Position numbers and translations under genes: made by a program. DNA of 64,000 nt, taken from Hysterangium stoloniferum (lineage: Eukaryota > Basidiomycota > Agaricomycetes > Hysterangiales > Hysterangiaceae). The first letter of the stretch is position 1; every line of letters begins with the position of its first letter. This document shows positions 3,037-40,515 of this stretch, in pieces. Under the pieces are notes generated by a model, which saw only the letters and a program-made list of their open reading frames with translations, had not been told where the DNA came from and searched no databases. Location of the stretch: contig WHVD01000090.1 of NCBI GenBank assembly GCA_015178975.1, forward strand, positions 1 to 64,000, in the 5' to 3' direction.

Positions 3037-3855
3037 TGTTAGGATACACACTCAGGCCGGGTTTCCGGAGAAACCCGCGGGATATCCGGTAGGACTTGGC
3101 TTCAGCTTATAGGCTGCGCCCTCGCTAGATCGTGTTGTCCAATTTCAGACAGGCGGACGGGAATCCCGGGGAGTCCGGGCGGGGGTTCGTGGGTCGTGAG
3201 TCGTAGGTCGTGAGTCGAGAGTCGTGAATCGAGATAGTCGAGAGAGATAGATGCGCCGGAGCCCGTGGGCTCCGACTAGTGCGAGCGGTCTGATAAGAGT
3301 AGGGTTTTAGAGAGGAAAATGTATTAGATTACTGGGGGGAATCTAAGCTAATTTTCTGACTGGATTGTATGTACAACATCTGCCAGTTTATATAGACCGT
3401 GGAATGCATGACATACCAAATCCAGTAATAATGAGACGAAACGAGCAAAACATAGAACGGGAATAGTAAACACCAAATTGGTGTTAGGAACGGGACGGAA
3501 CGGAGCGGAGTCCGAATCGTGACAAAGCATAACCCATAATGGGAAACGGAGCGGGAGCGGAGTCCTAAATCGTGACAGGTCATTTGACTAAAACGGGAAC
3601 GGGGCTCGATTAGAGCAGTGACGGGATTCTAAGCGGGTCCGGTGACTGATGCGTGGGACGAAGACGGACATAGACAGAGACGGGGTCCGGGGGAAGTCCG
3701 GTGACTGATATGTGTCTTAATGAGGTCGAACGTAACGAGTCTTGACGTAACGGAGTCCGGGCGGGAAATCCTATAAACAGACGATTGGTGCTTGTAGCGC
3801 GTGGGGGCGTACGAGTTAGTGCCCGGAGTCCGGCGGGATTTGTCCGGTCGTAACA
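3037..3855 (-). mobile_element. Solo gypsy LTR with 5-bp target duplication
   Basis: Reverse copy of the A/B family LTR, from TGTTAGGATA to CGTAACA. Flanked by GGAGT at 3032-3036 and 3856-3860, a clean 5-bp target site duplication, so this is a solo LTR left by LTR-LTR recombination. Nearly identical to the LTR at 2033-2852, hence young. Confidence 0.93.
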
Positions 3856-4868: not shown

Positions 4869-5074
4869 CAGTGGGTCAAAAAACTGCCCCAATGTTTGTG
4901 CACTTTGGAAAGATTGGTATTGTGTAAAGGAATGACATAAGCAAAGATTCTGAAACTTTTACATGATATACTAGAACATGTTGGCTATCTACCAGACTAG
5001 GAATCATGTGATTCCAATCAAAAATCATTGCTCAATAAATCAAACAAAATAATCACTTATTGGGGCAGTTTTGG
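4869..5074. mobile_element. MITE-like element with AAAACTGCCCCAAT termini
   Basis: Left terminus at 4869 (CAGTGGGTCAAAAAACTGCC) is matched in reverse complement by ATTGGGGCAGTTTTGG at 5059-5074, giving terminal inverted repeats about 205 bp apart with no coding frame between them. It begins at the TA that ends the Tc1-like copy. The right terminus runs straight into the 19-bp minisatellite. Confidence 0.6.
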
Positions 5075-5603
5075 TTACAATGGGAAACAGTGGTTACAAT
5101 GGGAAACAGTGGTTACAATGGGAAACAGTGGTTACAATGGGAAACAGTGGTTACAATGGGAAACAGTGGTTACAATGGAAACAGTGGTTACAATGGGAAA
5201 CAGTGGTTACAATGGGAAACAGTGGTTACAATGGGAAACAGTGGTTACAATGGGAAACAGTGGTTACAATGGGAAACAGTGGTTACAATGGGAAACAGTG
5301 GTTACAATGGGAAACAGTGGTTACAATGGGAAACAGTGGTTACAATGGGAAACAGTGGTTACAATGGGAAACAGTGGTTACAATGGGAAACAGTGGTTAC
5401 AATGGGAAACAGTGGTTACAATGGGAAACAGTGGTTACAATGGGAAACAGTGGTTACAATGGGAAACAGTGGTTACAATGGGAAACAGTGGTTACAATGG
5501 GAAACAGTGGTTACAATGGGAAACAGTGGTTACAATGGGAAACAGTGGTTACAATGGGAAACAGTGGTTACAATGGGAAACAGTGGTTACAATGGGAAAC
5601 AGT
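5073..5603. repeat. 19-bp minisatellite, 28 copies
   Basis: Perfect tandem repeat of GGTTACAATGGGAAACAGT, 28 units in 531 bp; one unit near 5175 lacks a single G. Because 19 is not a multiple of 3 and the unit has no stop in any forward frame, all three forward frames stay open and give the same 19-residue periodic peptide in three phases. This is repeat structure and not a gene. Near-perfect identity shows very recent expansion or homogenisation. Confidence 0.97.
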
Positions 5604-5639
5604 GGTTATAAAAGGAAGCAACAGTTCCAAATGGAAATA

Positions 5640-9856: not shown

Positions 9857-9978
9857 TCGTCAACGCGCGCCACTCGTTGGCCAGCGCTGATTCTCGTGCA
9901 CGACCTGGTTTTTGGCGTTCATCCAAATGAAGCACATTTCCGTGGTTGCCGTTGGAATCCTCCAACCCTCCTCAGACC

Positions 9979-12900
9979 ATGTCTTCGCAGTATTCACAAG
10001 ACCTTGGCTCCGCCGAATCACAGATGCCGTTTGTCTCAGGTATTAAATCAGAGTTTACACTTATTCTAAACTGAGGCACACAAACAGAGAGAGAAGGAAC
10101 AACCAACCGCCAATCTTCGCCTACTTATATTCCATCAAGCACAGTATACAGTGCCGATAATCGCTTAGAACCCGAGGACGATAACCCCTATAGCAAGCAT
10201 GTTCAATCCGATTCAACCATATGGTCATTATACCTCAAGGAAACGGGAGAAGATGACAAAGAGCTTGCCACCTCATTGCAAGTCGGTGTCGACGAGCTTC
10301 TCATATTTGTATATTCAATACGTTTTCCTTTATGGATATTTAATTAATTCACAGTTTTTCAGGCCGGTTTGTTTGGAGCAATTCTTACCGCGTTCCTGAT
10401 CGAAAGTAGGAAGGATTTGCAGGTAGATCCTCTTCGGGAAATCCTTCAGGCGCTTCAAAATCCCCTCGCTGTAACTACTTCTCAGCCTTTTCAAGTCTCC
10501 AAATCATCCCTTGTTGTCAACTGTTTGTGGTTCATTAGTCTCGGTCTGACTCTCTTCAGTGCGCTTTGTGCTGTACTTGCAAAAGAATGGCTGGCGAAGT
10601 ATATTCCTGTATCCCCCGGAAGTCGCTCAAGTGATGCATGCCTACGTCACCTTCGTGTTAGGAGAGCACAGCAATGGCATCTCGAGTCAGTTGTTACTGG
10701 AATCCCGCTTTTGATTCAACTGGCTCTCTTTCTTTTCTGTGCAGGTCTCGTCTTATTCACATGGAATAGCGGCGTAGCTTTGGGCACTCTTATGCTTTTT
10801 TTGACTATATTGGCAATCGTGCTATATATACTTGGTACTGTTTTTCCCTTGTTTTCCCCCGCTTGTCCCTTTCAGACAACAATGTCACGGTTTTTCCCAG
10901 TCGTATCTGCAAGCGCAAAGTATGAGACGTCTACATCAGACTACTATGGTTTTTTTTCACCGACAAGGGCGTATACATTCAGCATTTCTGAATGGCTAGA
11001 CGGTCTTTCCCGGTTCTTGGTCGAAACGCATCGCAAGCCTCAACGGGCCGAACTTGAAGCTGATATCCTGGCATGGGTGATTGAAAAATCTACATCGAAG
11101 GAGGGGATTTACAAGGTACTTAAGGCGGTAGCAGGTGCTAAACAATCTGAACAGTTGCGGATTGCCTTGTGCCAACGGGCTGTCACGGAGAACTTGTGCA
11201 AAACTTTGGAGAACTGCTTTGACGCCGCGGGCGTCGTCACTGTCCGTGATGCAGCACTTGCGGAAGTTTCTCTCCTTGCAATGTCACGATTCCTATCGCC
11301 GCCAACAGACAAACTCAGGGACAAAGAGTACATTACACCCTTCAAAACACTCCTAGATAATGGAAGACCATTACATCGGTTGGACAATTTAGATCCTTGC
11401 GTAAAGACGTTGGGGTGGGCGGTTCATATTGGGATTTGGGTAAATATGGATGTCGACAACCCAGAGGTGCTGACAGGCCCACACATTCAAACGGTGGCCA
11501 ATATGGGTGCAGCACCATACGAACGAAGGACATTGATGACGGCGTCTATGGATGGAGCATTGTCAGAAAAGAAGGGCTTACGTGCGACATGCGAAGGGTT
11601 AATGGTGGCATATTCGCATCTTAGTAGGGACTTTTTCCATGGCTTCGGGAAAGACACTGATTGATAAGCAGCGGATTGCCGAAGAATGCTCAAAGAAAAG
11701 GGTTTCATACTTGGTAAACTATGGAGTTGCCAGAGGTCAAAACAGACCTACCTAATGTATTATCATAACAGGGAAAGAAAGAGAGTGGGTGAAGAAAGTG
11801 ATTGAAAAAGCAGATGATCCTGATGAGCGATTACTTTTGGAATGTGGTGAGAAGATGCCAAGTGGAGAAGGGGTGCGATATAATATTCACCGGCGTTCAG
11901 CTAGATTCCCAACTGGCATCGTTGATGCTATTCCCAACATTGCTGCACTGTTGAAGGACTCTGACAACTCCATTCGATCAAGTGGAGTATCGGCCCTGGC
12001 GAAGTTTTCAGAGCAAGGTACGGTGTGATAATGAGATCGGAATCCACCTGACATTTGACCACAGCCGAATTTCGAGGCGCCATTGCCCCTGCCATTCCCG
12101 ACATTATTGCACTGTTGAAGGAGTCCGACCAATCCGTTCGATCAAGCACAGTATCGGCCCTGGCGAAGTTTTCAGAGCAAGGTGCGGTGTATGATAATGG
12201 GATCGGAATCCAGCTGATATTTACCCGCAGCCGAATTTCGAGCGGACATTGCGCCTGCCATTTCCGACATTGTTACATTCTTGAAGGACTCCGACGGTTC
12301 CTTTCGACCAAGGACCTTTTCTGAATGGTTGACGGACCCCAACGATTCCTTTCTATCAAGTACAGTGTCGGCCCTGGCAAATTTTTCAGAGCAAGGTGTC
12401 GTGTGTGATGATGGGATGGGAATCCGGCTGACATTTGACCACAGCCGAATTTCGAACTGCTATTGCGCCTGCCATTCCCGACATTATTGAACTGTTGAAG
12501 GATTACGACCATTCTGTTCAATCAAGGACAGTATCAGCCCTAGTGAAGTTTTCAGAACAAGGTGCGGTGTATGATAATGAGATGGGAATCCAGCTGATAT
12601 TTGACCACAGCCGAGTTTGCAGCGGCAATTGCGGATGTCATCCCTGATATTGTTGCACTGTTGAAGGACTCTAGCTATTATGATCTATTACGCATAGTAT
12701 CGGCTCTGGCGAAAGTGTCAGAGCAAGGTGCGGTGTGTGATAATGGGATGGGAATCCAGTTGACATTTGGCCGCAGCCGAACTTCGAGCCGCCATTGCGG
12801 GTGTTATTTCCGATATTATTGCACTGTTGAAGGACTCTGACTATTCCGTTCGATCAAAGACTGTTTTGGCCATGGCGATGGTTTTAGAGCAAGGTGCGGT

Positions 12901-15900
12901 GTGTTATAATGGGATGGGAATTTAGTTGACATTTGACCACAGCTGAATTTCGAGCGGCCATTGCCCCTGCGATTCCCGATATTATTGCACTGTTGAAGGA
13001 TTCTCACACGTTGTTTAAATCAGGGGCAGTATCAGCCCTGGGGGAGGCTTCAGAGCAACGTACGGTGGATGAGAATGAGATGGGAATCCGGCTGACATTT
13101 GAACACAGCCGAATTTCGAGCCGCCATTGTGCCTGCCATTCCCGATATTGTTGCACTGTTGAAGGATTTTGACAATCACGTCCGATCAAACACAGTATAC
13201 ACCCTGGCGAGGTTTTCAGAGCATGGTGCGGTGTGTGATAATGGGATGGGAATCCGGCTGACATTTGACCACAGCCGAATTTCGAGCCGCCATTGCACAT
13301 GCCTTTCCCGACATTATTGCACTTTTGAAGGACTCCGACCGTTTGGTTCGATCAAGCACAGTATCGGCCCTGGCCATTGTTTTAAAGCAAGGTGCAGTGT
13401 GTTGGAATGGGATGTGAATCCAGCTGACATTTGACCTCAGCCGAATTTCGAGCCGCCATTGCGCCTGCCATTCCCGATATTGTTGCACTGTTGAAGGATT
13501 CTGACTCGATCGTTATATCACGGGCAGTATCGGCCCTGAGTGAGGTTTCAGGGCAAAGTGTGGTGTGTGACAGTGAGATGGGAATCCGGCTGACATTTGA
13601 ACACAGCCGAATTTCGAGCCGCCATTGCGCGGGCCATTCCCGATATTGTTGCACTGTTGAAGGAGTCTAACGAGTTCGTTGGATCAAGCACAAGGTCAGC
13701 CCTGGCGGAGGTTTCAAAACAAGGTGATCCAATAAATCTTGTTGAAAGATTTGTCTCAAGTCTCCATAGGGGAGTTTCTCCCTCTCGTTAGGGTTAGCAT
13801 ACGCGAGGCTATAGGTCTCTCTGACCAAACGCGACCAACCCTGCGTGAGTCATCTTGAAACCCACTTCGAAGCCTGCACATCCCCTCTTTTTCCCCATCT
13901 CATTCTGATCCATATCGCGATAATCTAGTAAATACGCAAAACATACCACACTTCTCTGGATTGTCAACCCGTCCTCTGTCGTCAACTGTAGATCTCTTCC
14001 ATACTACCGATAGTATTTCGCGTCGTGAAGACATTAAGATCATTCAATGCCTAATAAGGACATGTACGTGAAGAGAGGTCATATATTGTTCATTCACTAA
14101 TTTCTTCACCACTTTCAAGCGCGGAATTTTGACCTTCCCTTATCCAGGTTAGACCTCACAGTGAAAAAAGGAAAGTTAACTCTAGGAAAGGTGGTCACTG
14201 CTCTACATATGTTTAGTCCGTGCAACAATTCCTTATAAATTGCCGTAATTCATGGACTTTCAGACGCATTTGGATCCGCCATTACCCGTGCCATTCCGGA
14301 CATTCTTGAACTGTTGAAGGACTCTGACGATTCCGTTCGATCAAGCACACTATCGGCCCTGGCCAAGGTTTCAGAGCAAGGTGTCATGTGATAACAGGAT
14401 GTGAATTAAGCTAACATTTGACCACAGACAAATTTCGAGCCGCCATTGCACCTGCCATTCCCGAGATTATTGCATTGTTGAAGGACTACAACGATTCCGT
14501 TCGATCAGAGGCAAAATCGGCCCTGGCGAAGTTTTCAGAGCAAGGTGCGGTGTATGATAATGGGATGGGAATCCAGCTGACATTTGACCACAGCCGAATT
14601 TCGACCCACCATTGCGGATGCCATTCCTGGCATTGTTGCACTGTTAAGAGATTCTAACAATACCATTCGATCAACGGGAGCATCGGCCCTGGCGATGTTT
14701 TCAGACCAAGGTGCGGTGTGTGATAATGGGATGGGAATCCAGCTGACATTTGACGATAGCTGAATTTCGAGCCGCCATTACGCCTGCCATTCCCGACATT
14801 ATTGCACTGTTGAAGGGTTCTGACTGGTTCGTTAGATTACGCGCAATATCGGCCCTGGGGAAGGTTTCAGAGCAAAGTGCAATGCGTGATAATGGGATGG
14901 GAATCCAGCTGACACTTGACGACAGCTGAATTTCGAGCCGCCATTGCGCCTGCCATTCCCGACATTATTGGACTGTTGAAGGACTCCAACGATTCCGTTC
15001 AATCAGAGACACTATCGGCCCTGGCGAAGTTTTTAGAGCAAGGTGCGGTGTATGATAATGGGATGGGAATCACGCTGACATTTGACCACAGCCGAATTTC
15101 GACCCACCATTACGGATGCCATTCCCGATATTGTTGCACTGTTGAAGGATTCTGACAATCACATTACATTAATCACAACATACACCCTGGCGAGGCTTTC
15201 AGAGCAAGGTGTGGTGTGTGATAATGGGATGGGAATCCGGCTGACATTTGACCCACAGCCGAATTTCGAGCCGCCATTGCGCCTGCCATTCCCGACATTA
15301 TTGCACTTTTGAAGGACTCCGACCGTTTCGTTCGATTAAGGACAGTCTCGGTCCTGGCCATTGTTTTAAAGCAAGGTGCAGTGTGTTGGAATGGGATGTG
15401 AATCCAGCTGACATTTGACCACAGCCGAATTTCGAGCCGCCATTGCGCCTGCCATTCCCGATATTGTTGCACTGTTGAAGGATTCTGCCTCGTTTGTTAG
15501 ATCGGAGGCAGTATCGGCCCTGGCGAAGTTTTCAGGGCAAGGTGCGGTGTATGATAATGGGATGGGAATCCAGCTGATATTTGACCACAGCCGAATTTCG
15601 ACCCGCCGTTGCGGGTGTCATTCCCGACATTGTTGCACTGTTGAAGGACTCTGACTGTTTCACTCGATTAAGCACAGTATCGGCCCTGGCGAAGTTTTCA
15701 GAGCAAGGTGCGGTGGGTGATAATGGATCAAAATCCCGCTGACATTTTACCACAGCCGAATTTCGACCCACCATTGCGGATGCCATTCCTGGCATTGTTG
15801 CACTGTTAAAAGATTCTAACAATTCCATTCGATCAACGGGAGCATCGGCCCTGGCGATGTTTTCAGACCAAGGTGCGGTGTGTGATAATGGGATGGGAAT

Positions 15901-16287
15901 CCAGCTGACATTTGACGACAGCTGAATTTCGAGCCGCCATTGCCCCCGCCATTCCCGACATTGTTGCACTGTTACAGAACGCTGACCAGTTCGTTCGATC
16001 AAGTGGGGCATTGGCACTGGAGGAGGTTTCAAAGCAAGGTGCGGTGTGTGATAATGGGACCGGAATACGGCTGACATTGGACCACAGCGGAATTTCGACC
16101 CGCCATTGCGCGTCTCATTCCCGAGATTGTTGCCCTGTTGGAAGACGCATATTTTCAAACTCAAAGAATTGTTCTCGGCCTGCTCGTTCGGCTAGCAGCC
16201 CATGATTTTAGAATGACATGTACTTTCGATCATGTCTTAGGCATTAATTCCTTTTCTTTGTTCCTAACATTGCTTTCGTCGTCATAG
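9979..16287 (+). CDS. DUF6535 membrane protein with HEAT-repeat array (left arm)
   Basis: Proposed exons: 9979-10039, 10145-10308, 10363-11623, 11672-11713, 11772-12017, then 21 cassette exons from 12065 to 16038 and a last exon at 16088-16287. All edges are GT-AG, and the lengths sum to 4479 nt (1492 residues). Exons 2-3 give the DUF6535 module: STIWSLYLKETGEDDKELA, then DELLIFAGLFGAILTAFLIE, with four hydrophobic segments (about residues 75-95, 125-150, 190-215 and 220-245). HEAT repeats (AIPDIVALLKDSD..VRS..VSALAKFSEQ) follow from about residue 560. DUF6535 is a fungal domain of unknown function, so membrane anchoring with a cytosolic solenoid is inference. The 3' end differs from the right-arm gene: sequence identity stops at the last common exon edge and the frame runs to a chance TAG, so this copy has lost its native C-terminus. 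The start was chosen because MSSQYSQDLG is conserved in both arms. Confidence 0.8.
12018..16087 (+). repeat. Array of 21 HEAT exon-intron cassettes (left arm)
   Basis: Tandem units of ~166 bp: a 117-nt exon coding one 39-residue HEAT repeat and a ~49-nt intron. Introns begin GTGCGGTGTGTGATAATGGG, carry GCTGACATTTGAC (branch point CTGAC) and end CACAG; I found GT and AG at every unit edge. Exons start and end in phase 1. The second unit is longer (12231-12395, 55 codons). Exons end at 12181, 12395, 12561, 12727, 12893, 13059, 13225, 13391, 13557, 13723, 14380, 14544, 14710, 14876, 15042, 15208, 15375, 15541, 15707, 15872 and 16038. Reading straight through without splicing produces the many 79-residue false frames. 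Confidence 0.88.
13724..14263 (+). other. 540-nt intron in the middle of the left HEAT array
   Basis: Lies between cassette 10 (ends CAAAACAAG) and cassette 11 (starts ACGCATTTGG), with GT at 13724 and AG at 14262-14263, joining phase 1 to phase 1. It is more than ten times the usual intron length here. The right arm has the same segment at 19081-19620, also 540 nt, nearly identical. The first ~60 nt keep the exon frame open and would encode GDPINLVERFVSSL.RGVSPSR before a stop, so an alternative is that some transcripts end there. Confidence 0.65.
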
Positions 16288-17146
16288 TATCCATTGTTCC
16301 CAATTTCCTAAATACTCAATACCTCAGTCGATTCCAGTGTTCGTATCGACTGAGGTAAGTCACCAGTTCCTTCGCTATTCTGCATACTCATTTCATATTA
16401 ATAGTTATATTTCGTTATAGGCATAGGTTTTGCGGTGACTGTCAGATCAACGGTAAACGTAGGTCTGTGCATTGGATATTCGTGATACTTCCAAAAACTC
16501 GGAAGGGACGCAAGAAATATATGACGGAACAACAAATGGGACAATATAGCGAATACATGTGGATCTGGCGGAAACCATATATAACGGTGGACTGGAGTTA
16601 TCACCATTCTACCACTCACAAACTATGTGAGACTACAATGTTGTTAATAGTCCGTGTCTATCCATTTGCACGATGAAAGCCCGAATCCGCTCAGCAGAAA
16701 TATCCTCCATGAAATGTATTATGAAGGATAAAATATGAGCAACTTCAAGAATGGCATGGCTTGTACAAGCTACCAAGATCGGTATTCATCACAACTCGAT
16801 GAGGTAAACACTTACTAGATTTCAAGAGAATTTCAATCAGCGTGCCACGAGGTTGGAGAGGTGGTGCAGGTAAATATAAGTGACACAATGCAGAGATGAC
16901 TATGTGCAGCTTAATGTCGGTAAAGTAACCTGCAAGACGGTAAAAGGAGTCAATGGTGGAAAGAATTAAAGCTTACCATATTGAGCAAAAGCTACAAACA
17001 ATTTTCCAACATTTGAAACGACTTCGTCGTCATCGTTATTGACAAGGGATATACAGTGACGTTCTAATTTGCAATCAATAATAGCTTCGCGAAGGCAATC
17101 TTTGAAAACATTGAGGAGATGTTGACTTGGGTGTCAATGCACACAC
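16205..17146. other. Palindrome spacer
   Basis: 942 bp between the arms. Its right half (16633-17146) holds the native 3' exons and introns of the right-arm gene on the minus strand; the left part (16288-16632) shows no gene. Confidence 0.75.
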
Positions 17147-17263
17147 CATGGGCTGCTAGCTGAACGAGCAGGTCCAGAACATTTGTTTGAGTTTGAAAAC
17201 TTGCGTCTTCCAACAGGGCAACAATGGTGGGAATGAGACCCGCAATGGCGGGTCGAAACTCCG

Positions 17264-20200
17264 CTGTGGTCCAATGTCATCCGGATTCCGATCCCATTAT
17301 CACACACCTCACCTTGCTCTGAAACCTTCGCCAGTGCCAATGCCCCCCTTGATCGAACGAACTCGTCAGGGTCCTGTAACGATGCAACAATGTCGGGAAT
17401 GGCAGGGGCAATGGCGGCTCGAAATTCGGCTGTGGTAAAATGTCAGCTAGATTCTGATCCCATTATCACCCACCGCACCTTGCTCTGAAAATTTCGCCAG
17501 TTCCGATACTCCATGTAATAGAACGACCTTGTGAGAGTCCTTTAACAGTGCAACAATGTCGGGAATGGCAGGGGCAATGACGGCTCGAAATTGAGCTGTG
17601 GCAAAATGTCAGCTGGATTCTGATCCATTATCACCCACCGCACCTTGCTCTGAAAACTTCGCCAGGGCCGATACTGTGCTTGATCGAGTGAAATAGTAAG
17701 AGTCCTTCAACAGTGCAACAATGTTGGGAATGACACCCGCAACGGCAGGTCGAAATTCGGCTGTGGTCAAATATCAGCTGGATTCCCATCCCATTATCAT
17801 ACACCGCACCTTGTTCTGAAAACTTCGCCAGAGCCAATACTGTGCTTGATTGAACGAAATGGTCGGAGTCCTTCAACAGTGCAATAATGTCAGGAATGGC
17901 AGGGGCAATGGCCGCTCGAAATTCGGCTGTGGTCAAATGTCAGCTAGATTCCCACCCATTATCACACCGCACCTTGGTCTGAAAACATCTCCAGGGCCGA
18001 TGCTCCCGTTGATCGAATGGAACCGTCAGAATCTTTTAACAGTGCAACAATGCCAGGAATGGCATCCGCAATGGTGGGTCGAAATTCGGCTGTGGTCAAA
18101 TGTCAGCTGGATTCCCATCCCATTATCATACATCACACCTTGCTGTGAAAACTTCGCCAGGGCCGATAATGCCTCTGATCTAGCCCATTTGTCAGAATCC
18201 TTCAACAGTGCAACAATATCGGGAATGGCAGGGGCAATGGCGGCTCTAAATTCGGCTGTGGTCGAATGTCAGCCCGATTCACATCCCATTCCAACACACT
18301 ACACCTTGCTTTGAAACAGTGGCCAGGACCGATACTGTACTTGATCTAACGAACTCGTCAGAACCTTTTAACAGTGCAACAATGCCAGGAATGGCATCCG
18401 CAATGGTGGGTCGAAATTCGGCTGTGGTCAAATGTCAGCTGGATTCCCATCCCATTATCATACACACACCTTGCTCTGAAAACGTCCCCAGGGCCCATAC
18501 TGCCTGTGATCTAACGAATTTGTCGGAATCCTTAAACAGTGCAACAATATCGGGAATGGCAGGGGCAATGGCGGCTCGAAATTTTTCTGTGGTCAAATGT
18601 TAGCTGGATTCTCATCCTGTTATCACACATGACACCTTGCTCTGAAACCTTGGCCAGGGCCGATATTGTGCTTTCTCGAACGGAATGGTCAGAGTCCTTC
18701 AATAGTGCACGAATGTCCGGAATGGCATCCGCAATGGTGGGTCGAAATTCGGCTGTGGTCAAATGTCAGCTGGATTCCCATCCCATTATCATACACCACA
18801 CCTTGCTTTGAAAACTTCGCCAGGGCCGATACTGCCTCTGATCGAACAGAATAGTCAGACTCCTTCAACAGTGCAATAATGTCGGGAATGGCAGGCGCAA
18901 TGGCGGCTCGAAATTTGTGGTCAAATGTTAGCTGGATTCTCATCCTGTTATCACACATGACACCTTGCTCTGAAACCTTGGCCAAGGCCGATACTGTGCT
19001 TGATCGAACAGAATTGTCAGAGTCCTTCAACAGTTCAAGAATGTCCGGAATGGCACGGGTAATGGCGGATCCAAATGCGTCTGAAAGTCCATGAATTACG
19101 GCAATTTATAAGGAATTGTTGCACGGACTAAACATATGTAGAGCAGTGACCACCTTCCCTAGAGCTAACTTTCCTCTTTGCACTGTGAGGTCTAACCTGG
19201 GTAAGGGAAGGTCAAAATTCCGCGCTTGAAAGTGGTGAAGAAATTAGTGAATGAACAATATATGACCTCTCTTCACGTACATGTCATTATTAGGCATTGA
19301 ATGATCTTGATGTCTTCACGACGCGAAATATTATCGGGACTATGGAAGAGATCTACAGTCGACGACAGAGGACGGGTTGATAATCCAGAGAAGTGTGGTA
19401 TATTTTGCGTATTTGCTAGATTACCGCGATATGGATCAGAATGAGATAGGGAAAAAGAGGGGATGTGCAGGCTTCGAAGTGGGTTTCAAGATGACTCACG
19501 CAGGGTTGGTCGCGTGTTGTCAGAGAGACCTATAGCCGCGCGTATGCTAACCCTAACGAGAGGGAGAAACTCCCCTAGGGAGGCTTGAGACAAATCTTTC
19601 AACAAGATTTATTGGATCACCTTGTTTTGAAACCTTCGCCAGGGCCGATCCTGTGCTTGATCTAACGAACTCGTCAGAATCTTTTAACAGTGCAACAATG
19701 CCAGGGATGGCAGCTGCAATGGTGGGTCGAAATTCGGCTGTGGTCAAATGTCAGCTGGATTCCCATCCCATTATAATACACCGCACCTTGCTCTGAAAAC
19801 TTCGCCAGGGCCGATACTGCCTGTGATCTAACTAACGAGTCGGAATCCTTCAACAGTGCAACAATACCGGGAATGGCAGGGGCAATGGCGGCTCTAAATT
19901 CGGCTGTGGTCGAATGTCAGCTGGATTCACATCCCATTCCAACACACTACACCTTGCTTTGAAACAGTGGCCAGGGCCGATACTGTACTTGATAGAACGA
20001 ACCCGTCAGAATCATTTAACAGTGCAACAATGCCAGGAATGGCATCCGCAATGGTGGGTCGAAATTCGGCTGTGGTCAAATGTCAGCTGGATTCCCATCC
20101 CATTATCATACACCACACCTTGCTCTGAAAACGTCTCCAGGGCCCATAATGCCAGTGATCTAACGGATTTGTCGGAATCCTTAAACAGTGCAACAATATC

Positions 20201-21327
20201 GGGAATGGCAGGGGCAATGGCGGCTCGAAATTCGGCTGTGTTCAAATGTCAGCTCGATTCCCATCTCACTGTCACACACCGTACTTTGCTCTGAAACCAT
20301 CCTCAGGGCTGATACTGCCCCTGATCTAAACGTGTGAGAATCCTTTAACAGTGCAACAATATCGGGAAGCGCATGGGCAATGGCCGCTCGAAATTCAGCT
20401 GTGGTCAAATGTCAACTGGATTCCCATCCCATTATAACACACCGCACGCACGTTGCTCTAAAACCATCGCCATGGCCAAAACAGTCTTTGATCGAACGGA
20501 ATAGTCAGAGTCCTTCAACAGTGCAACAATATCGGAAATAACACCCGCAATGGCGGCTCGAAGTTCGGCTGTCGTCAAATGTCAGCTGGATTCCCATCCC
20601 ATCATCACACACCGCACCTTGCTCTGAAACTTTCGCAAGAGCCGATACAACGCGTAATAGATCATAGTAGCTAGAGTCCTTCAACAGTGCAACAATATCA
20701 GGGATGACATCCGCAATGGTTGCTCCAAACTCGGCTGTGGTCAAATATCAGCTGGATTCCCATCCCACTATCATACACCGCACCTTGTTCTGAAAACTTT
20801 GCCAGGGCCGATACTGTGCTTGATCGAACGGAATGGTCGGAGTCCTTCAACAGTGCAATAATGTCGGGAATGGCAGGGGCAATGGCGGCTCGAAATTCGA
20901 CTGTGGTCAAATGTCAGCCGGATTCCCATCCCATTATCACACACCGCACCTTGCTCTGAAAACTTTGCCAGGGCCGATACTGTACTTGATCTAAAAGAAT
21001 ATTTGAGCTCCTCGCACAATTCAAACATGGTCCTTGGTCGAAAGGAACCGTCGGAGTCATTCAAGAGTGCAACAATGTCGGAAATGGCAAGCGCCATGTC
21101 CGCTCGAAATTCGGCTGCGGGAAAATATCAGCTGGATTCCGATCCCATTATCATACACCGCACCTTGCTCTGAAAACTTCGCCAGGGCCGATACTGTGCT
21201 TGATCGAACGGAATGGTCGGACTCCTTCAACAGTCCAATAATGTCGGGAATGGCAGGCGCAATGGCGGCTCGACATTCGGCTGTGGTCAAATGTCAGGTG
21301 GATTCCGATCTCATTATCACACCGTAC
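17264..21327 (-). repeat. Array of 21 HEAT exon-intron cassettes (right arm)
   Basis: Same 166-bp cassette design as the left arm. Exon 3' edges fall near 21165, 20950, 20785, 20619, 20453, 20286, 20118, 19953, 19789, 19621, then after the 540-nt intron 18963, 18803, 18634, 18471, 18305, 18139, 17973, 17812, 17644, 17480 and 17313. The unit count equals the left arm. Cassettes 1-6, 10-12, 19 and 21 correspond to those on the left; 7-9 and 13-18 do not. One intron (about 18915-18962) has lost its acceptor AG by a 4-nt deletion. Confidence 0.87.
19081..19620 (-). other. 540-nt intron in the middle of the right HEAT array
   Basis: Counterpart of 13724-14263, bounded by GTGATCC on the exon side and CTTTCAG on the acceptor side. 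It retains the short conserved GDPINLVERFVSSL.RGVSPSR extension (one residue differs between arms). Confidence 0.65.
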
Positions 21328-23492
21328 CTTGCTCTGAAAACTTCGCCAGGGCCGATACTCCACTTGATCGAATGAAGTTGTCAGAGTCCTTCAACAGTGC
21401 AGCAATGTTGGGAATAGCACCAATGATGCCAGTTGGGAATCTAGCTGAACACTGGTGAATATTATATCGCACCCCTTCTCCACTTGGCATCTTCTCACCA
21501 CATTCCAATAGTAATCGCTCATCAGGATCATCTGCGTTTTCAATCGCTTTCTTCATCCATTGCCTTTTTTTTCCTGTTATGATAATACATTAGGTGCGTT
21601 TTGACTTATGACAACTCCATAGTTTACCAGGTATGAAACCTTTTTCTTTGAGCATTCTCCGGCAATCCACTGCTAATCAATCAGTTTTTTTCTCGGAGCC
21701 ATGGAAAAAGTCCCTACTACGAGACCAATATGCCACTATTAACCCTTCGCATGTCGCATGCAAGCCCCTCTTTTCTGACAATGCTCCATCCATAGCCGCC
21801 GTCATCAATGTCCTTCGTTCGTATGCTGCTGCACCCATATTGGCCACCGTTTCAATGTGTGGGCCTGTCGGCACCTCTGGGTTGTCGACATCCATATTTA
21901 CCCAAATCCCAATATGAGCCGCCCACCCCAACGTCTTCACGCAAGGGTCTAAATTGTCCAACCGATGTAATGGTCTCCCATTATCTAGGAGTGTTTTGAA
22001 GGGCGTAAGGTACTCTTTGTCCTTGAGTTTGTCTGTTGGCGGCGATAGGAATCGTGACACATTGCAAGGAGAGAAACTTCCGCAAGTGCTGCATCACGGA
22101 CAGTGACGACGCCCGCGGTGTCAAAGCAGTTCTCCAACGTTTTGCACAATTTCTCCGTGACAGCCCGTTGGCACAAGGCAATCCGCAACTGTTCAGATTG
22201 TTTAGCACCTGCTACCGCCCTAAGTGCCTCATAAATCCCCTCCTCCGATGTGGATCCTTCAATCACCCATGCCAGGATATCAGCTTCAAGTTCGGCCCGT
22301 TGAGGCTTGCGATGCGTGTCGACCAAGAACCGAGAAAGGCCCTCTAGCCATTCAGAAATGCTGAATGTATACGCCCTTGTCGGTGAAAAACAACCATAGT
22401 AGTCTGATGTAGATGTCTCATACTTTGCGCTTGCAGAGACGACTGGGAAAAACCTTGACATTGTTGTCTGAAAGGGACAAGCGGGGGAAAACAAGGGAAA
22501 AACGGTGCCAAGCATATATAGCACGATTGCCAATATGGTCAAAAAAAGCATAAGAACGCCCAAAGCTACGCTGCTATTCCATGTGAATAAGACGAGACCT
22601 GCACAGAACAGAAAGAGAGCCAGTTGAATCAAAAGCGGGATTCCAGTAACAACTGACTCGAGACGCCATTGCTGTGCTCTCCTAACACGAAGGTGACGTT
22701 GGCATGCATCACTTGAGCGACTTCCGGGGGATACAGGAATATACTTCGCCAGCCATTCTTTTGCAAGTACAGCACAAAGCGCACTGAAGAGAGTCAGACC
22801 GAGACTAGTGAACCACAAATAGTTGACAACAAGGGATGATTTGGAGACTTGAAAAGGCTGAGAGGTAGTTACAGCGAGGGGATTTTGAAGCGCCTGAAGG
22901 ATTTCCCGAAGAGGATCTACCTGCAAATCCTTCCTGCTTTCGATCAGGAACGCGGTAAGAATCGCTCCAAACAAACCGGCCTGAAAAAATGTGAATTAAT
23001 TAAATATCCATAAAGGAAAACGTATTGAATATACGAATATCAGAAGCTCGTCGACACCGACTTGCAATGAGGTGGCAAGCTCTTTGTCCTCTTCTCCCGT
23101 TTCCTTCAGGTATAATGACCATATGGTTGAATCGGATTCAACATGCTTGCTATAGGGGTTATCCTCCTCGCTTTCTAAGCTATTATCGGGACTGGATACT
23201 GGCCTTGATGGAATATAAGTAGGCGAAGATTGACGGTTGGTTGTTCCTTCTCCCTCTGTTTGTGTGCCTCAGTTTGGAATAAGTGTAAACTCTGATTTAA
23301 TACCTGAGACAAAAGGTATCTGTGATTCGGCGGAGCTAAGGTCTTGTGAATACTGCGCAGACATGGTCTGAGTCGGTTGGAGGATTCCAACGGCAAGAAC
23401 GGAAATCTGCTTCATTTGGATGAACGCCCAAAACCAGGTTGTACACAAGAATCAACGTTGGCCAACGAGTGGTGCGCGTTGACCAAAGTGTC

Positions 23493-31035: not shown

Positions 31036-31559
31036 TAGTATGATTGTACGCGCTCAGTGAGAAGTCACAGCTTCAGAAAATTGTTAATTGAAAGGCAAGG
31101 TTCACGACCATGAATGGTGGACCACCATATCCTGGCATTGAGAATGCCAAGAAAGCCTTACATAGTTCAATTTGGAAGGTACCCGAGGAATTGTTCAGAA
31201 TATGAAAAATTTCCTGCACATTTTCAGAAATTTAAACATTTTTGAGTTTGCAAGAAATCGGCACGAACAGGACAATAAGCACAAGCATTGAACCCAGGGC
31301 CAGCTTGAGCCTATTCGGACGCAGTAGCAAAGACAGGGAATATTCTATATTTTCTCCCAAATTTCAGAGGGTATCCTGAGACTGAGAATTTTCAATGCCG
31401 TGTGAGAGCGGCTATTTACTTGAAACAAAAGGGCCCAAGTCGGCTATATTCAAGCTCCGATAGCCTAATTAGTGCTGCTGGCTAAGTACTCGAATTCCCT
31501 CAGTCGACTGCATTTTTATGCATCTTTTTACTTTATCATAGTGAGCTGGATGAGATGAA
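31036..31559. other. No recognised gene
   Basis: No frame, repeat or RNA feature was identified between the inverted repeat and the LysM pseudogene. Confidence 0.5.
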
Positions 31560-32675
31560 ATGCATAGGTTGGAATTCGATGCCAGAAACGAAGAGCAAGA
31601 GGCCTCTACCAACCCATGGATTGACGTTGAACACATCCCAGTCGACTTTGACACGCTCGAATCACCACCACCACCACACAGTTCGCCTGTATCTAAACCA
31701 GCAATTGGACATAGACGGTCCCAGACATCGCCTGGTCATCCCTTACGCCCCTCCTTATCAGTCTCCTACAACATCGACGACGCATCTGGATTTGGAACAT
31801 CGTTGGACTTGCATGAAACACGACCGTCACTTAGACGAGCGATTAAGGCGAGAACCGAGAGTTTTGAGGATGATGCAGAGACGGCTTTGGAGTGCAAATC
31901 GCATAAGGACGCAGAGGACACCAGGGCGAAAGAGACCGAAATCATTGTACACTACGTATGTTCACTCCACTATGGCTTGGCTGTTCTTGCTGCTGATTTA
32001 TACCCTCACAAGGTCCGCCCTGGGGATTCGCTTCCAGGCGTCGCACTCAAATACAACGTCTCCCTCGCGGCACTCAGAAACGCAAACAAACTCTGGACAA
32101 ACGATACCATCCACCTCCGAGAATGGACGTTAGAAAGGGTCATACCATTTCGTCAGGTGCACCCAAAATCCGACGTGTCCCCGTATCAGAGCTTTCCTTT
32201 TTTCCGCCGCCGTCTGCGCCACTATCACTATCCGCATTACCGAGCCCGAGCCGCCCGGTGGTATCTCGATCATTCTCCAAGCAAGCGCTTCCGAGCCCGC
32301 CGTCTGCCTTTTCGCGAAACGCCTCCCCATTGGGGTTGGCGAATATCTGGAATGGGGCCAGGGAGGAGATCGTGAGCCGGCTTTCGTTGGATTTGGCGTG
32401 GTCCTCGTCTGATGGGAGACAAGCCCGAGTTTGAACTTGATGTCGTTAGTGGTGTCAAGCGAGGCGGTAAAAATGGTGCCAAGGTGCGGACATCGAGTTT
32501 CGGATCTGCGTTAGGGGGGGACGCTATCCCGTTGGAAGAAACACTGCGCAGCCCGCGGGTTATTAGGACGCAGCAATTACAGCCTAGTGCCGCGATGATT
32601 ATCCCGGTTTCTCCAAAGGTTGGAAGGGTTGCGAATGTCGCTGTGTCACCAAGAGTGCATCCACATGTGCGTTGA
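31560..32675 (+). pseudogene. LysM-domain protein (cytosolic basidiomycete type), frameshifted
   Basis: The N-terminal frame from ATG 31560 (MHRLEFDARNEEQEASTNPW) runs to a 57-nt GT-AG intron (31956-32012). Then comes the LysM domain: RPGDSLPGVALKYNVSLAAL, RNANKLWTNDTIHLRE, with the conserved GDSL, Y and N..W..D.IHLR residues. LysM binds chitin or peptidoglycan-type glycans, but this family lacks a signal peptide and is probably intracellular. The conserved downstream motif RRVPVSELSFFPPP lies in another frame from about 32160, and the C-terminal part (PEFELDVVSG, VIRTQQLQPSAAMIIPV) in yet another from about 32412, so two frameshifts separate conserved segments. The usual length (~350 residues) is otherwise kept, suggesting a recent pseudogene or sequence errors. 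Confidence 0.75.
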
Positions 32676-37203: not shown

Positions 37204-37239
37204 GTATTTTCTGACTGATACTCGCAGATTGTTTTCATT

Positions 37240-38427
37240 ATGCCACCAAGAAGAAATACACGCGCACAGGCATCATTACCTGGACCGTCGACTCTTCATT
37301 CCCTGTTAACTCTGTATACCAGCCAGACACTCTTGAACCAACCGGAACCCATGGAAGAAGCCAGTATCGAAGAAGTCCCGGAAAACCAGGACAACCTCGA
37401 GCACGAGGACGAATCCATGGCACCCGACAAGGGAAAAAGTGTCGAAAATCCTCCACCTAATCAGCGACCGCACTTGGGTGACCTGACTTCTGAGTTTTTA
37501 GCAGGCACTATAGATAAATTTATGACACACCTGCTTGAAGAACGAAAGAAAAAGGAACAAGAACCTCCACGGTCAAAAGTCAATGCTCCAGAACCCTTCA
37601 CGGGTTCCAACCCAAACAAGCTCTCTACTTTCCTCATGCAATGTCGCTTCAATTTCTGTGATCGTGCCGCTGCATCCTCCATGGACTCCCAAAAAGTCAA
37701 TTACGCACTTTCATATTTGTCGGGATCCGCGTTGAAATGGTTTGAACCGGCTTTTAGTGGGATTTCCGAGGAAGAGCCACTTTGGCTCGAAGATTGGGAT
37801 GCTTTTGTTGAGGAGCTTGAAACCAACTTTGGCCCATATGACCCGACAGGAGAAGCCGAGAACAGCCTCACAAATCTTCGTATGAAGGACACACAGTGCA
37901 TCACGGACTACATCGTCCAATTCAATAATCTTGCAGCTCGTTGTCAGTGGGGCGATCCCGCTCTCCGCCACCAATTCTACGCTGGTCTGCCATCCCACCT
38001 TAAAGACAAAGTCTCAAAAGGAGAAGATGGCAAGCCAAAAACCCTGTCCCGTATGCACCTCAAGGCTCAAAACGCGGATGCACGTTATTGGGAACGTTGC
38101 ACGGAAGTTGCCCGTGAGACCTCCGCGGACAAAGTAAACAAGTCCACGGCCAATAAAAACAACAACAACTCGTCAACCAGCAACTCCACTCAATCTGACA
38201 AGAAGAACGATAAGAAGTCTTCAAACAACAACAACAACAAGGACAAGGACAATAACACGGGTCAACAGTCCAGCAAGCAAGCTGGAAAACCCGACCTCTC
38301 AGGCAAACTCGGACCTGATGGCAAATTAACCCCACAAGAAAGACAATATTGTAAGGGACGAACAGCCAAGGCCTCCACGGAAACCCCGTCAAAGGACAAA
38401 CCGGCATCTGACTCAAAAAAAGAGTAA
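37240..38427 (+). CDS. Gag of element B
   Basis: Open frame of 395 residues starting MPPRRNTRAQASLPGPST. The capsid-like part (about residues 115-260) has PEPFTGSNPNKLSTFL, SYLSGSALKWFEPAF and DPTGEAENSLTNLRM, typical of chromovirus gag; an Asn/Ser-rich linker follows. The frame itself is open, but the element as a whole is broken. Homologous pieces occur at 48201-48900 and 54100-55200 (minus). Confidence 0.88.
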   Translation: MPPRRNTRAQASLPGPSTLHSLLTLYTSQTLLNQPEPMEEASIEEVPENQDNLEHEDESMAPDKGKSVENPPPNQRPHLGDLTSEFLAGTIDKFMTHLLEERKKKEQEPPRSKVNAPEPFTGSNPNKLSTFLMQCRFNFCDRAAASSMDSQKVNYALSYLSGSALKWFEPAFSGISEEEPLWLEDWDAFVEELETNFGPYDPTGEAENSLTNLRMKDTQCITDYIVQFNNLAARCQWGDPALRHQFYAGLPSHLKDKVSKGEDGKPKTLSRMHLKAQNADARYWERCTEVARETSADKVNKSTANKNNNNSSTSNSTQSDKKNDKKSSNNNNNKDKDNNTGQQSSKQAGKPDLSGKLGPDGKLTPQERQYCKGRTAKASTETPSKDKPASDSKKE

Positions 38428-38499
38428 GCAACCCTGCGGACTCCACGCGGGTTGGGGGTTGCGTTGCCTCTCCGTGCATTCAAGAGTTTACTCGCCTTA

Positions 38500-40515
38500 A
38501 CGCATCCACTCTCTCACATTCTGATTCATTTTTCGTTAAACTTATGTCTAATATGATCCTGAAATTCGTTTTTTCAGCTCTCATAGATTCCGGTTCGACT
38601 CATTGTTTTTTTGATACAAAATTCACGCAAAAAAATTCTTTGTCAACCTATTCGATAAATCCCGTCGGCCTCCACCTCTTTGATGGCACAAGTAATTCGG
38701 TTGTTACCCAAGCTTGTGATTTATCCATCTCGTTCCCATGTGGAACATCTCATTTGGTCACTTTCTATGTGACCCAGTTAGACTCAAGTTGCTTGGTGGT
38801 CCTAGGACATAACTGGCTTACCCGCTACAATCCGTTGATTGACTGGATAGCTAACAGTATAACATTCCGGACTCCCGCGGTGACCGAGGAAACTGTGCCT
38901 GTCTCGGCCTCCACGGCACCCATGGCCTTCCCAGCACCTGCAGTCTCGAGGACTCCTGTGATCCCTACGGCACCTACAGCTTCCTTGGAACCCACGGCAC
39001 CTCTGTCCATTTCTCTGATTAATGCTGCAGCTTTTATTAGGGCTTCAAAAATGGATGGTTCCCAGGAATTCACCATCAACTTAAAAATTGATGAAGCAAC
39101 TGGACGTTTTTCAACCCCGGTATCTGAATCTGAGCAAGCCGCTGACCTAGAAGGCATCCCAGAGAAATACCATGACTTTGCGGATATTTTTAGCAAGTGG
39201 AAAGCTGACCGGCTTCCACCTCACAGAGAATATGACTTAAAAATCAATCTTGAAGACGGCACCCAGCCACCCCTAGGACATATTTACCTGCTTTTGTCCA
39301 CGGAACTATCTGCAATCCGTGATTTCCTGGATGAACATTTGTCCATAGGTTTTATTCAACCCTCAAAATCTCCTTTTGGAGCACCTGTTCTGTTTGTCAG
39401 AAAAAAGGATGGATCCCTTTGACTATGTGTTGATTTTAGAGGACTCAATGCTGTCACCAAAAAGGATAAATATCCACTCCCACTTATATCTGATCTGCTC
39501 GATGCTCTGCGGAATGCCTGGATTTACACCAAAATAGATCTCAAACATGCCTATCATTTGGTCTGGATCGCCACCGGCGACGAATGGAAAACCACTTTTA
39601 GAACCCGCTATGGGGCCTTTGAATGGTTGGTGATGCCCTTTGGACTCACCAATTCTCCTTCTGTTTTTCAGTGTTTTATCAATGACATTTTCTCCAACAT
39701 GCTTGATGTATGCATCATTGTTTACTTGGACGATATTCTTATCTACTCCAAGAATCCCGTGGAACACGACAGACAAGTCCGTGAAGTTCTCCTGAGACTC
39801 AGAAAACATGGTTTATTCGTGAATGGTAAAAAATGTACTTTTGACACGTACTCCGTGGAATACCTGGGTTTCATAATGGGACCCGATAGACTCCACATGG
39901 ACGAAACTAAAGTGCAAGTCATCAAAGATTGGCCCGAACCTCAAAAAGTTAAAGATATACAATCCTTCCTTGGCTTTGCCAATTTTTACAGACGGTTTAT
40001 CTGCAGATATTCCAACATCACGGTACCCCTTACCCATCTCACGTGTAAGGGTACTCCATGGAATTTCAACGCTAAGTGTCAAAAAGCTTTCAATCTTTTA
40101 AAAAATTCTTTTTCTACAGCTCCTATTCTGTCACATTGGAAACCGGACTTCCCACTCATTGTTGAAATGGACGCCTCAGACTATGCACTTGGAGCCATTC
40201 TGTCTATCCAGGACTCCGACGGAGAAGTCCATCCCATGGCTTTTCTGTCCTGGACTTTTACCAGAGCAGAGCTCAACTACGATGTTCATGATAAAGAGCT
40301 TCTGGCAATCTTTTCAGCTTTCAAAGCATGGCAACACTATTTGGAAGGCTCAGGAACTCCTATTGACGTTGTAACAGATCATAAAAACCTGGAATACTTT
40401 TCTACCACAAAAATTTTGACCCACCGGCAGGCCCGCTGGTCTGAATATCTATCTGCTTTCAACATGATTATTTGTTTTGACCCGGCCGTCTCGGCGGCAA
40501 ACCCGGCGCTTTAAC
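38500..40515 (+). mobile_element. Protease, reverse transcriptase and RNase H region of element B
   Basis: The aspartic protease motif is seen as LIDSGSTHCFFD, reverse transcriptase as [15 protein letters not shown] and YLDDILIYS, and RNase H as IVEMDASDYALGAILS. Broken in a few places; treated as a fossil. Confidence 0.9.

Follow-up and report, generated by a model that had tools for sequence, protein, structure and literature searches.

The stretch of DNA analysed here (the window) comprises 64,000 nucleotides (nt) of the genome of Hysterangium stoloniferum (C545:1-64000; 111 Mb in 554 contigs), a truffle-like ectomycorrhizal fungus of the Agaricomycetes, order Hysterangiales. It carries a predicted gene, copy A, whose array of HEAT repeats is built from cassettes, each consisting of one repeat exon and one short intron, together with an inverted paralogue, copy B, and both belong to a large family in this genome. 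The model of copy A has 30 exons and 29 introns and encodes 1,613 amino acids with no internal stop, in the order DUF6535, HEAT block 1, central domain and HEAT block 2. The interval 12,018-16,087 is the middle part of this gene, and both of its ends coincide with intron edges. There are 23 HEAT repeats in total, 21 of them in exons of their own. The features of copy A are as follows.

9979-16287, plus strand: copy A, predicted gene
9979-10039, 10088-10308, 10363-11623 and 11672-11713, plus strand: N-terminal exons, DUF6535 with strongly hydrophobic stretches (gene model, Pfam, hydropathy)
11772-12017, plus strand: exon with the junction region and the first HEAT repeat
12065-13723, plus strand: HEAT block 1, ten cassettes separated by 49-nt phase-1 introns; exons start at 12065, 12231 (165 nt), 12445, 12611, 12777, 12943, 13109, 13275, 13441 and 13607
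13724-14263, plus strand: central segment, 540 nt without cassettes; exons at 13770-13844, 13929-14063 and 14120-14215
14264-16038, plus strand: HEAT block 2, eleven cassettes with introns of 47-50 nt; exons start at 14264, 14428, 14594, 14760, 14926, 15092, 15259, 15425, 15591, 15756 and 15922
16088-16287, plus strand: last repeat exon, with the stop at 16287; similarity to copy B is gone past about 16,204

The initial annotation had proposed one HEAT repeat per exon in the interval 12,018-16,087, and the gene model bears this out: of its 21 repeat exons there, one measures 165 nt and all others 117 nt, and Tandem Repeats Finder recovers the period of 166 nt. The cassette introns of copy A, 46-50 nt long and in phase 1, are copied along with their exons, so the units are frame-neutral, as had been supposed. 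In the model of copy A all acceptors are AG and all donors GT or GC, and 28 of the 29 introns are in phase 1, the remaining one, in the N-terminal part, being in phase 0. Some of the finer claims have to be corrected. The branch point, described as a constant CTGAC, has this form in 15 of the 23 copy A introns shorter than 52 nt, with CTGAT in three and TTGAC in two. The tandem array of 166-nt cassettes is real, but it is broken at 13,724-14,263 by three non-repeat exons and four introns of 46, 84, 56 and 48 nt. One long intron or the promoter of a second gene was ruled out for this gap, because 17 aligned copies show conserved blocks flanked by splice sites and three open exons. These central exons (13,770-14,215), the inverted tail-to-tail copy (23,364-16,401) and the genome-wide family had not been part of the earlier description. 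The introns are not required for keeping the frame, because in-register exchange of a 39-codon repeat is sufficient and the one clear chimera, described below, broke inside an exon. In searches made with whole cassettes, introns sit at one fixed place in each repeat, which the copying of cassettes already explains; introner-like introns would be inserted at unrelated sites.

At the N terminus of copy A, the Pfam model PF20153 (DUF6535) scores 161.6 bits against a cut-off of 23.9 (E 2.2e-47), and HEAT_2 reaches 178.4 bits over 12 stretches, with HEAT models spanning the remainder; the scan used a 1,511-residue form of the protein, without the central exons. Hydropathy exceeds 1.6, a cut-off of our own choice, at residues 84-110, 142-169 and 200-264, while the repeat part peaks at 1.45. 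No Rfam family matched the window above its gathering threshold.

A search of the genome with the cassette consensus yielded at least 471 matches, a lower bound since 40 of 290 candidates were scored, and the DUF6535 model gave 75, fragments among them. Four further DUF6535 loci were inspected; cassettes are present in three and absent from L041. Two DUF6535 pieces with equal scores lie in opposite orientation at G000:C92:3958-4485 and 13105-13632, perhaps another inverted duplication. The units analysed below come from the window and twenty 10-kb loci, where the window itself and 19 of these loci gave profile hits, 472 in total; 441 of these are units that could be parsed at both edges, and 299 of the 441, the stop-free ones whose exon measures 117 nt and whose intron measures 49 nt, constitute the diversity set. 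Where a central segment is present (17 loci), 3-18 parsed units precede it and 7-20 follow it; the smallest counts before it, 3 (L028) and 8 (L027), come from blocks cut by the ends of the fetched stretch, and with the 15 uncut loci the range before the segment is 10-18, so that the predicted variation in repeat number between paralogues is indeed found. Central exon 1, identified by pattern in 14 of the 17 copies, measures 75 nt (72 in two), and exons 2 and 3 are present in all 17, the former with 135 nt in 13 copies, 114 in three and 126 in one, the latter with 96 nt in 16. No stop codon occurs in the scored central exons of these 17 copies.

The repeat exons look like coding sequence. Their coding frame is free of stops in 437 of the 441 units, compared with 19 and 74 for the other two forward frames, and one antisense frame is free of stops in 277. 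Twenty units have an exon length other than 117 nt, and 18 of these differ by a multiple of three; among the short introns, 103 depart from 49 nt, five of them by a multiple of three (Fisher p 3e-15, a value that overstates independence because the units share descent). Donors are GT in 425 of 437 cases and GC in 12. Retention of a short intron would shift the frame in 385 of 420 cases, and in 14 the intron is open and in frame. On the frame and length controls over the 441 units, a noncoding satellite was set aside.

The second copy in the window follows the same plan as the first.

16401-23364, minus strand: copy B, inverted tail-to-tail paralogue, with the plan of copy A plus C-terminal exons at 17100-16401
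17313-21444, minus strand: HEAT units of copy B, 22 parsed, 11 before and 11 after the central segment, with one more repeat at 17263
19081-19620, minus strand: central segment of copy B, with the three-exon plan of copy A

Compared in 100-nt steps, the two copies are 88-99% identical in the unique 5' part (about 9,960-12,060) and 70-97% identical in block 2 aligned in order; the cassette order or content has therefore changed faster than the rest. Together they form a long inverted repeat (window 9971-23372), and read-through transcription could give a hairpin RNA.

The mode of cassette evolution can be followed in the diversity set, where mean diversity is 0.203 for exons (0.206, 0.191 and 0.211 by codon position) and 0.128 for introns. 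The introns are thus more alike than the exons, in line with what had been reported, partly because the exons hold hypervariable codons. Among the closest pairs (89 edges, at most 6 differences), change amounts to 0.0246 at non-synonymous sites, 0.0260 at synonymous sites and 0.0202 in introns, near-equal rates such as are expected if cassettes are copied whole; over all 286 edges the values are 0.0623, 0.0666 and 0.0474, the introns evolving somewhat more slowly, perhaps through splicing constraint. For 223 of the 299 units the closest relative belongs to another gene, and in 123 of these 223 it sits in the same block with an index within 1, where about 11% would be expected. For the other 76 it lies in the same gene (25% against 5.5% expected), within two places in 23 of the 76; arrays cut by the fetched stretches were counted as separate genes in this test. 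Within arrays, 61 exon pairs are at most 3 bases apart, the commonest offsets being 1 (14 pairs) and 2 (9 pairs). Of the amplification and homogenisation proposed earlier, the copying of the whole cassette stands, but recent homogenisation within single genes as the main process in the window's subfamily was set aside on these nearest-unit data, even though own-gene neighbours are enriched. The cassette introns of that subfamily differ by 0.137 within genes and 0.138 between genes, whereas its central introns differ by 0.044, and therefore the cassettes are older than the gene copies. A second subfamily is more homogenised, with 0.060 within and 0.082 between genes for cassette introns and 0.069 for central introns. 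Between the subfamilies, distances of 0.138 for cassette introns and 0.200 for central introns would fit either constraint on the cassette introns or exchange across subfamilies.

Exchange between genes is indicated by unit L029:550, on C212 near 670,550. Up to base 65 it agrees with a block-2 type at 10 of 11 informative bases, and from base 70 every informative exon base is of block-1 type; as the change of type falls between these two bases, the switch lies inside the exon. The array runs on into the adjoining L028, with a second central segment followed by C-terminal exons, as if two genes had been fused by unequal crossing over. The chimeric cassette indicates in-register exchange between genes, an assembly error being possible.

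Variation along the repeat is uneven. The most variable of the 38 codons are 22, 23 and 27, with amino-acid diversities of 0.90, 0.83 and 0.77, followed by 8, 28, 35, 33 and 21. The best sequence matches of a four-repeat query in the PDB are a synthetic fusion and alphaRep chains, and then designed armadillo proteins and PP2A-A. The alphaRep proteins share the helix pattern of the cassette repeats and differ in being artificial binders with a shorter repeat, of 31 residues. Their library, as described, was randomised at positions 18, 19, 22, 23, 26 and 30 (PMC3754942), which we map to codons 22, 23, 26, 27, 30 and 34, so that three of the six randomised positions are the most variable codons; this mapping was placed when the variability data were known, and a later PDB alignment agrees with it. 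Ratios of non-synonymous to synonymous change between near neighbours were taken from 287 distinct sequences and 237 of 286 tree edges (at most 15 differences), using single-change codons only. The ratio is 1.42 (p 0.026) at the six alphaRep-equivalent codons, by a counting method without a recombination model and with the codons set post hoc; nine core codons, chosen after the variability had been seen, give 0.64 (p 0.006). Codons 22, 23 and 27 give 2.01 (p 0.0008), a set picked post hoc that we do not take as a test. The signal at the alphaRep-equivalent codons is modest and may reflect diversifying selection there.

We propose that the window samples a large protein family, predicted to be anchored in the membrane and to form HEAT solenoids, in which DUF6535 would lie in the membrane and carry a long solenoid stored as interchangeable cassettes. 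The cassettes would undergo unequal crossing over and conversion in register, across genes too, and the number of repeats and the order of surface variants would change in this way while the junction frame is kept; the repeat core is conserved, and variation is greatest where, by our mapping, the HEAT-like alphaRep binders touch their targets. Most likely, such proteins would serve to recognise partners that vary, such as non-self, symbiont or parasite molecules, a case that we regard as evenly balanced. Carried furthest, the proposal would make this a fungal recognition system separate from the NOD-like receptors (NLRs), with dozens of membrane-anchored HEAT genes drawing on hundreds of cassettes, which recombination, and possibly combinatorial splicing, would shuffle into a large surface repertoire; this version is unlikely.

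A number of points weigh against recognition, and they are given here with the alternatives on which they bear. Among the best 25 of the 31 Pfam families found on copy A (E up to 0.01), there is no NACHT or NB-ARC domain and no ROC-COR or other GTPase, and a known fungal receptor signalling domain thus appears to be missing from that set. The near-neighbour ratio over all 38 codons is 1.07 (p 0.36); constraint would therefore be weak, and some copies may be decaying. Three alphaRep-equivalent codons, 26, 30 and 34, are less variable (0.20, 0.30 and 0.49), and recombination can inflate ratios of this kind. The argument is further weakened because the alphaRep mapping was not blind, because some deposited protein models read cassette introns and because copy B has a further lesion; the decay reading taken up below gains a little from the same points. 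The overall ratio, the synonymous change that is likewise high at codons 21-23 and the matches to ordinary cellular HEAT proteins (PP2A-A) would all suit a structural or scaffolding membrane family, with arrays that change by recombination and drift and surface residues that vary since they are unconstrained. We consider this explanation somewhat unlikely, in view of the ratio above 1 at the alphaRep-equivalent codons, the position of all three most variable codons within that set and the size of the family.

The condition of the gene copies is a second ground for caution. The large N-terminal exon of copy B is 2 nt shorter than that of copy A near 22,060, and the frame is lost thereafter; the acceptor AG is absent before 18,918, and the C-terminal match shows a stop opposite a leucine of P0140, a deposited H. 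stoloniferum model. Copy A is without the C-terminal exons of its paralogues, the C-terminal match in the window being found solely in copy B. To judge from their sequences, both copies look damaged and neither can be called intact, B being broken and A truncated. Across the family, copy B included, the acceptor AG is missing in 6 of the 441 units, four of them through the same deletion (L024:6720, L026:3213, L029:1873 and window 18918, minus strand), which suggests a common origin of this cassette or its spread by conversion. Central exon 3 of L028 measures 85 nt and is out of frame, and because the second central segment of the fused gene carries this exon its product may be broken, although the junction is in frame. 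These lesions, along with fragments such as L021, L023 and L040, are what would be expected of a decaying satellite-like family whose cassettes multiply as tandem DNA while most copies make no protein. That outcome is rather improbable given the stop-free frame in 437 of 441 exons, the 18 of 20 exon length changes in multiples of three, and central exons that are stop-free where scored and, all but one, multiples of three in length.

The deposited models support the cassette junctions in part, and real intron retention is possible. P0140 matches L023 on C545 at 292 of 294 residues and fits excision of the 49-nt intron that separates the last two repeats (L023:5949-5997), but its start falls inside an upstream cassette, and at least two models (P0117 and P0118) contain stretches that, by eye, read as retained cassette introns. 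The H. stoloniferum models P0003, P0077, P0117 and P0118 show wrong-frame cassette exons (e.g., NFEPP), fusion to a WD40-repeat model or intron read-through, and the annotation of the cassette family in the deposited models looks unreliable. Under intron definition, which goes with short introns, exon skipping is rare, and the introns of about 49 nt suggest this mode; it is accordingly improbable that in-frame skipping of cassettes yields many proteins per gene, as isoforms with different repeats. Alternative splicing would nevertheless be favoured by the symmetric phase-1 exons, by what we read as an in-frame AG 12 nt inside the copy B exon that lacks the normal AG, and by precedents in which leucine-rich repeat (LRR) exons of brown algae and the 3-bp mini-exons of truffle NACHT-ANK genes are described as alternatively spliced (PMC11378527, PMC9815663).

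Relatives of copy A are found among other fungi. The armadillo-type protein P0001 of Mycena albidolilacea combines DUF6535 with a HEAT array of about 39-residue repeats and a mid-array non-repeat insert, and BLASTP aligns residues 1-1511 of copy A with its residues 1-1557 at 39%. For the central segment and the Mycena insert, two short pieces compared by BLASTP matched at 27% over 101 residues, partly HEAT, and a HEAT-free profile of the segment found nothing significant in P0001, so that homology of the two appears weak. P0079 of Mycena venus and the fragment P0078 of Acaulospora colombiana match the N-terminal region and have HEAT domains listed, whereas the other 37 of the 40 proteins matching this region have none listed; bacterial HEAT proteins are weaker matches. 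Of the literature searched, one paper mentions DUF6535, in work on another subject.

The splitting of every repeat by an intron, earlier judged unusual, has already been published outside fungi in candidate receptors, while the papers listed in our searches, judged by titles and abstract openings, show no fungal or HEAT case and none that deals with a fungal family of one HEAT repeat per exon. Brown algal LRR-ROCO genes are reported to have single-repeat exons in one phase, exchanged between genes, and variable binding faces under diversifying selection (PMC11378527). The cassette family resembles them in carrying one repeat per predicted exon in a single phase and in the exchange of repeat exons between genes, with the reservation that an assembly error at the chimera is possible; it differs in having 117-nt phase-1 HEAT exons and DUF6535, where the algal report describes 72-bp phase-2 LRR exons, a ROC-COR GTPase and alternative splicing. 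Tetrahymena, as described, has arrays of 90-bp LRR exons of exact length and single phase that undergo exchange (PMC6564038), and shares a variable exon number per gene and a nearest exon that is often in another gene; it is a ciliate system, with LRRs, phase 2 and far more genes. The repeats of fungal NLRs (Podospora hnwd, ANK, TPR) are described as diversified, with exchange inside genes as well as from one gene to another (PMC4986451, PMC2873952), and neither main text contains the word intron. As in these fungal proteins, where few positions vary, on the binding face, the cassette repeats are highly similar with few variable positions; NLRs, however, carry a NOD domain, of which there is none among the 25 best Pfam families of copy A. 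This pattern speaks for a solenoid working like an NLR repeat domain and gives no sign of membership.

The rest of the window contains 28 tandem copies of a 19-bp unit at 5072-5608 (99% matches), open in each of three forward frames; pieces of Ty3-type retrotransposons at 37219-40511 (plus strand) and 55218-52852 (minus strand), with matches to gag, aspartyl protease, reverse transcriptase and RNase H; an open frame matching a LysM domain at 31554-32372; and short TCGTGAG-like arrays, or their complement, at 3187, 7283, 36171, 37011 and 48007.

All together, the cassette family presents a new combination, in which single-repeat exons and their exchange occur with a HEAT fold, in phase 1, with a predicted membrane domain and in a fungus, a kingdom whose recognition repeats have so far been described, in the reports cited above, in NLRs. 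If the proposed reading is true, the design of brown algae and ciliates would have arisen anew, on a different fold, in a different intron phase and without a recognisable NLR core. With the intron of every repeat serving as an internal marker, the rates at which units are gained, lost and exchanged are measurable. Since the fungus is ectomycorrhizal, the family is a candidate for the recognition of self, symbionts or parasites.

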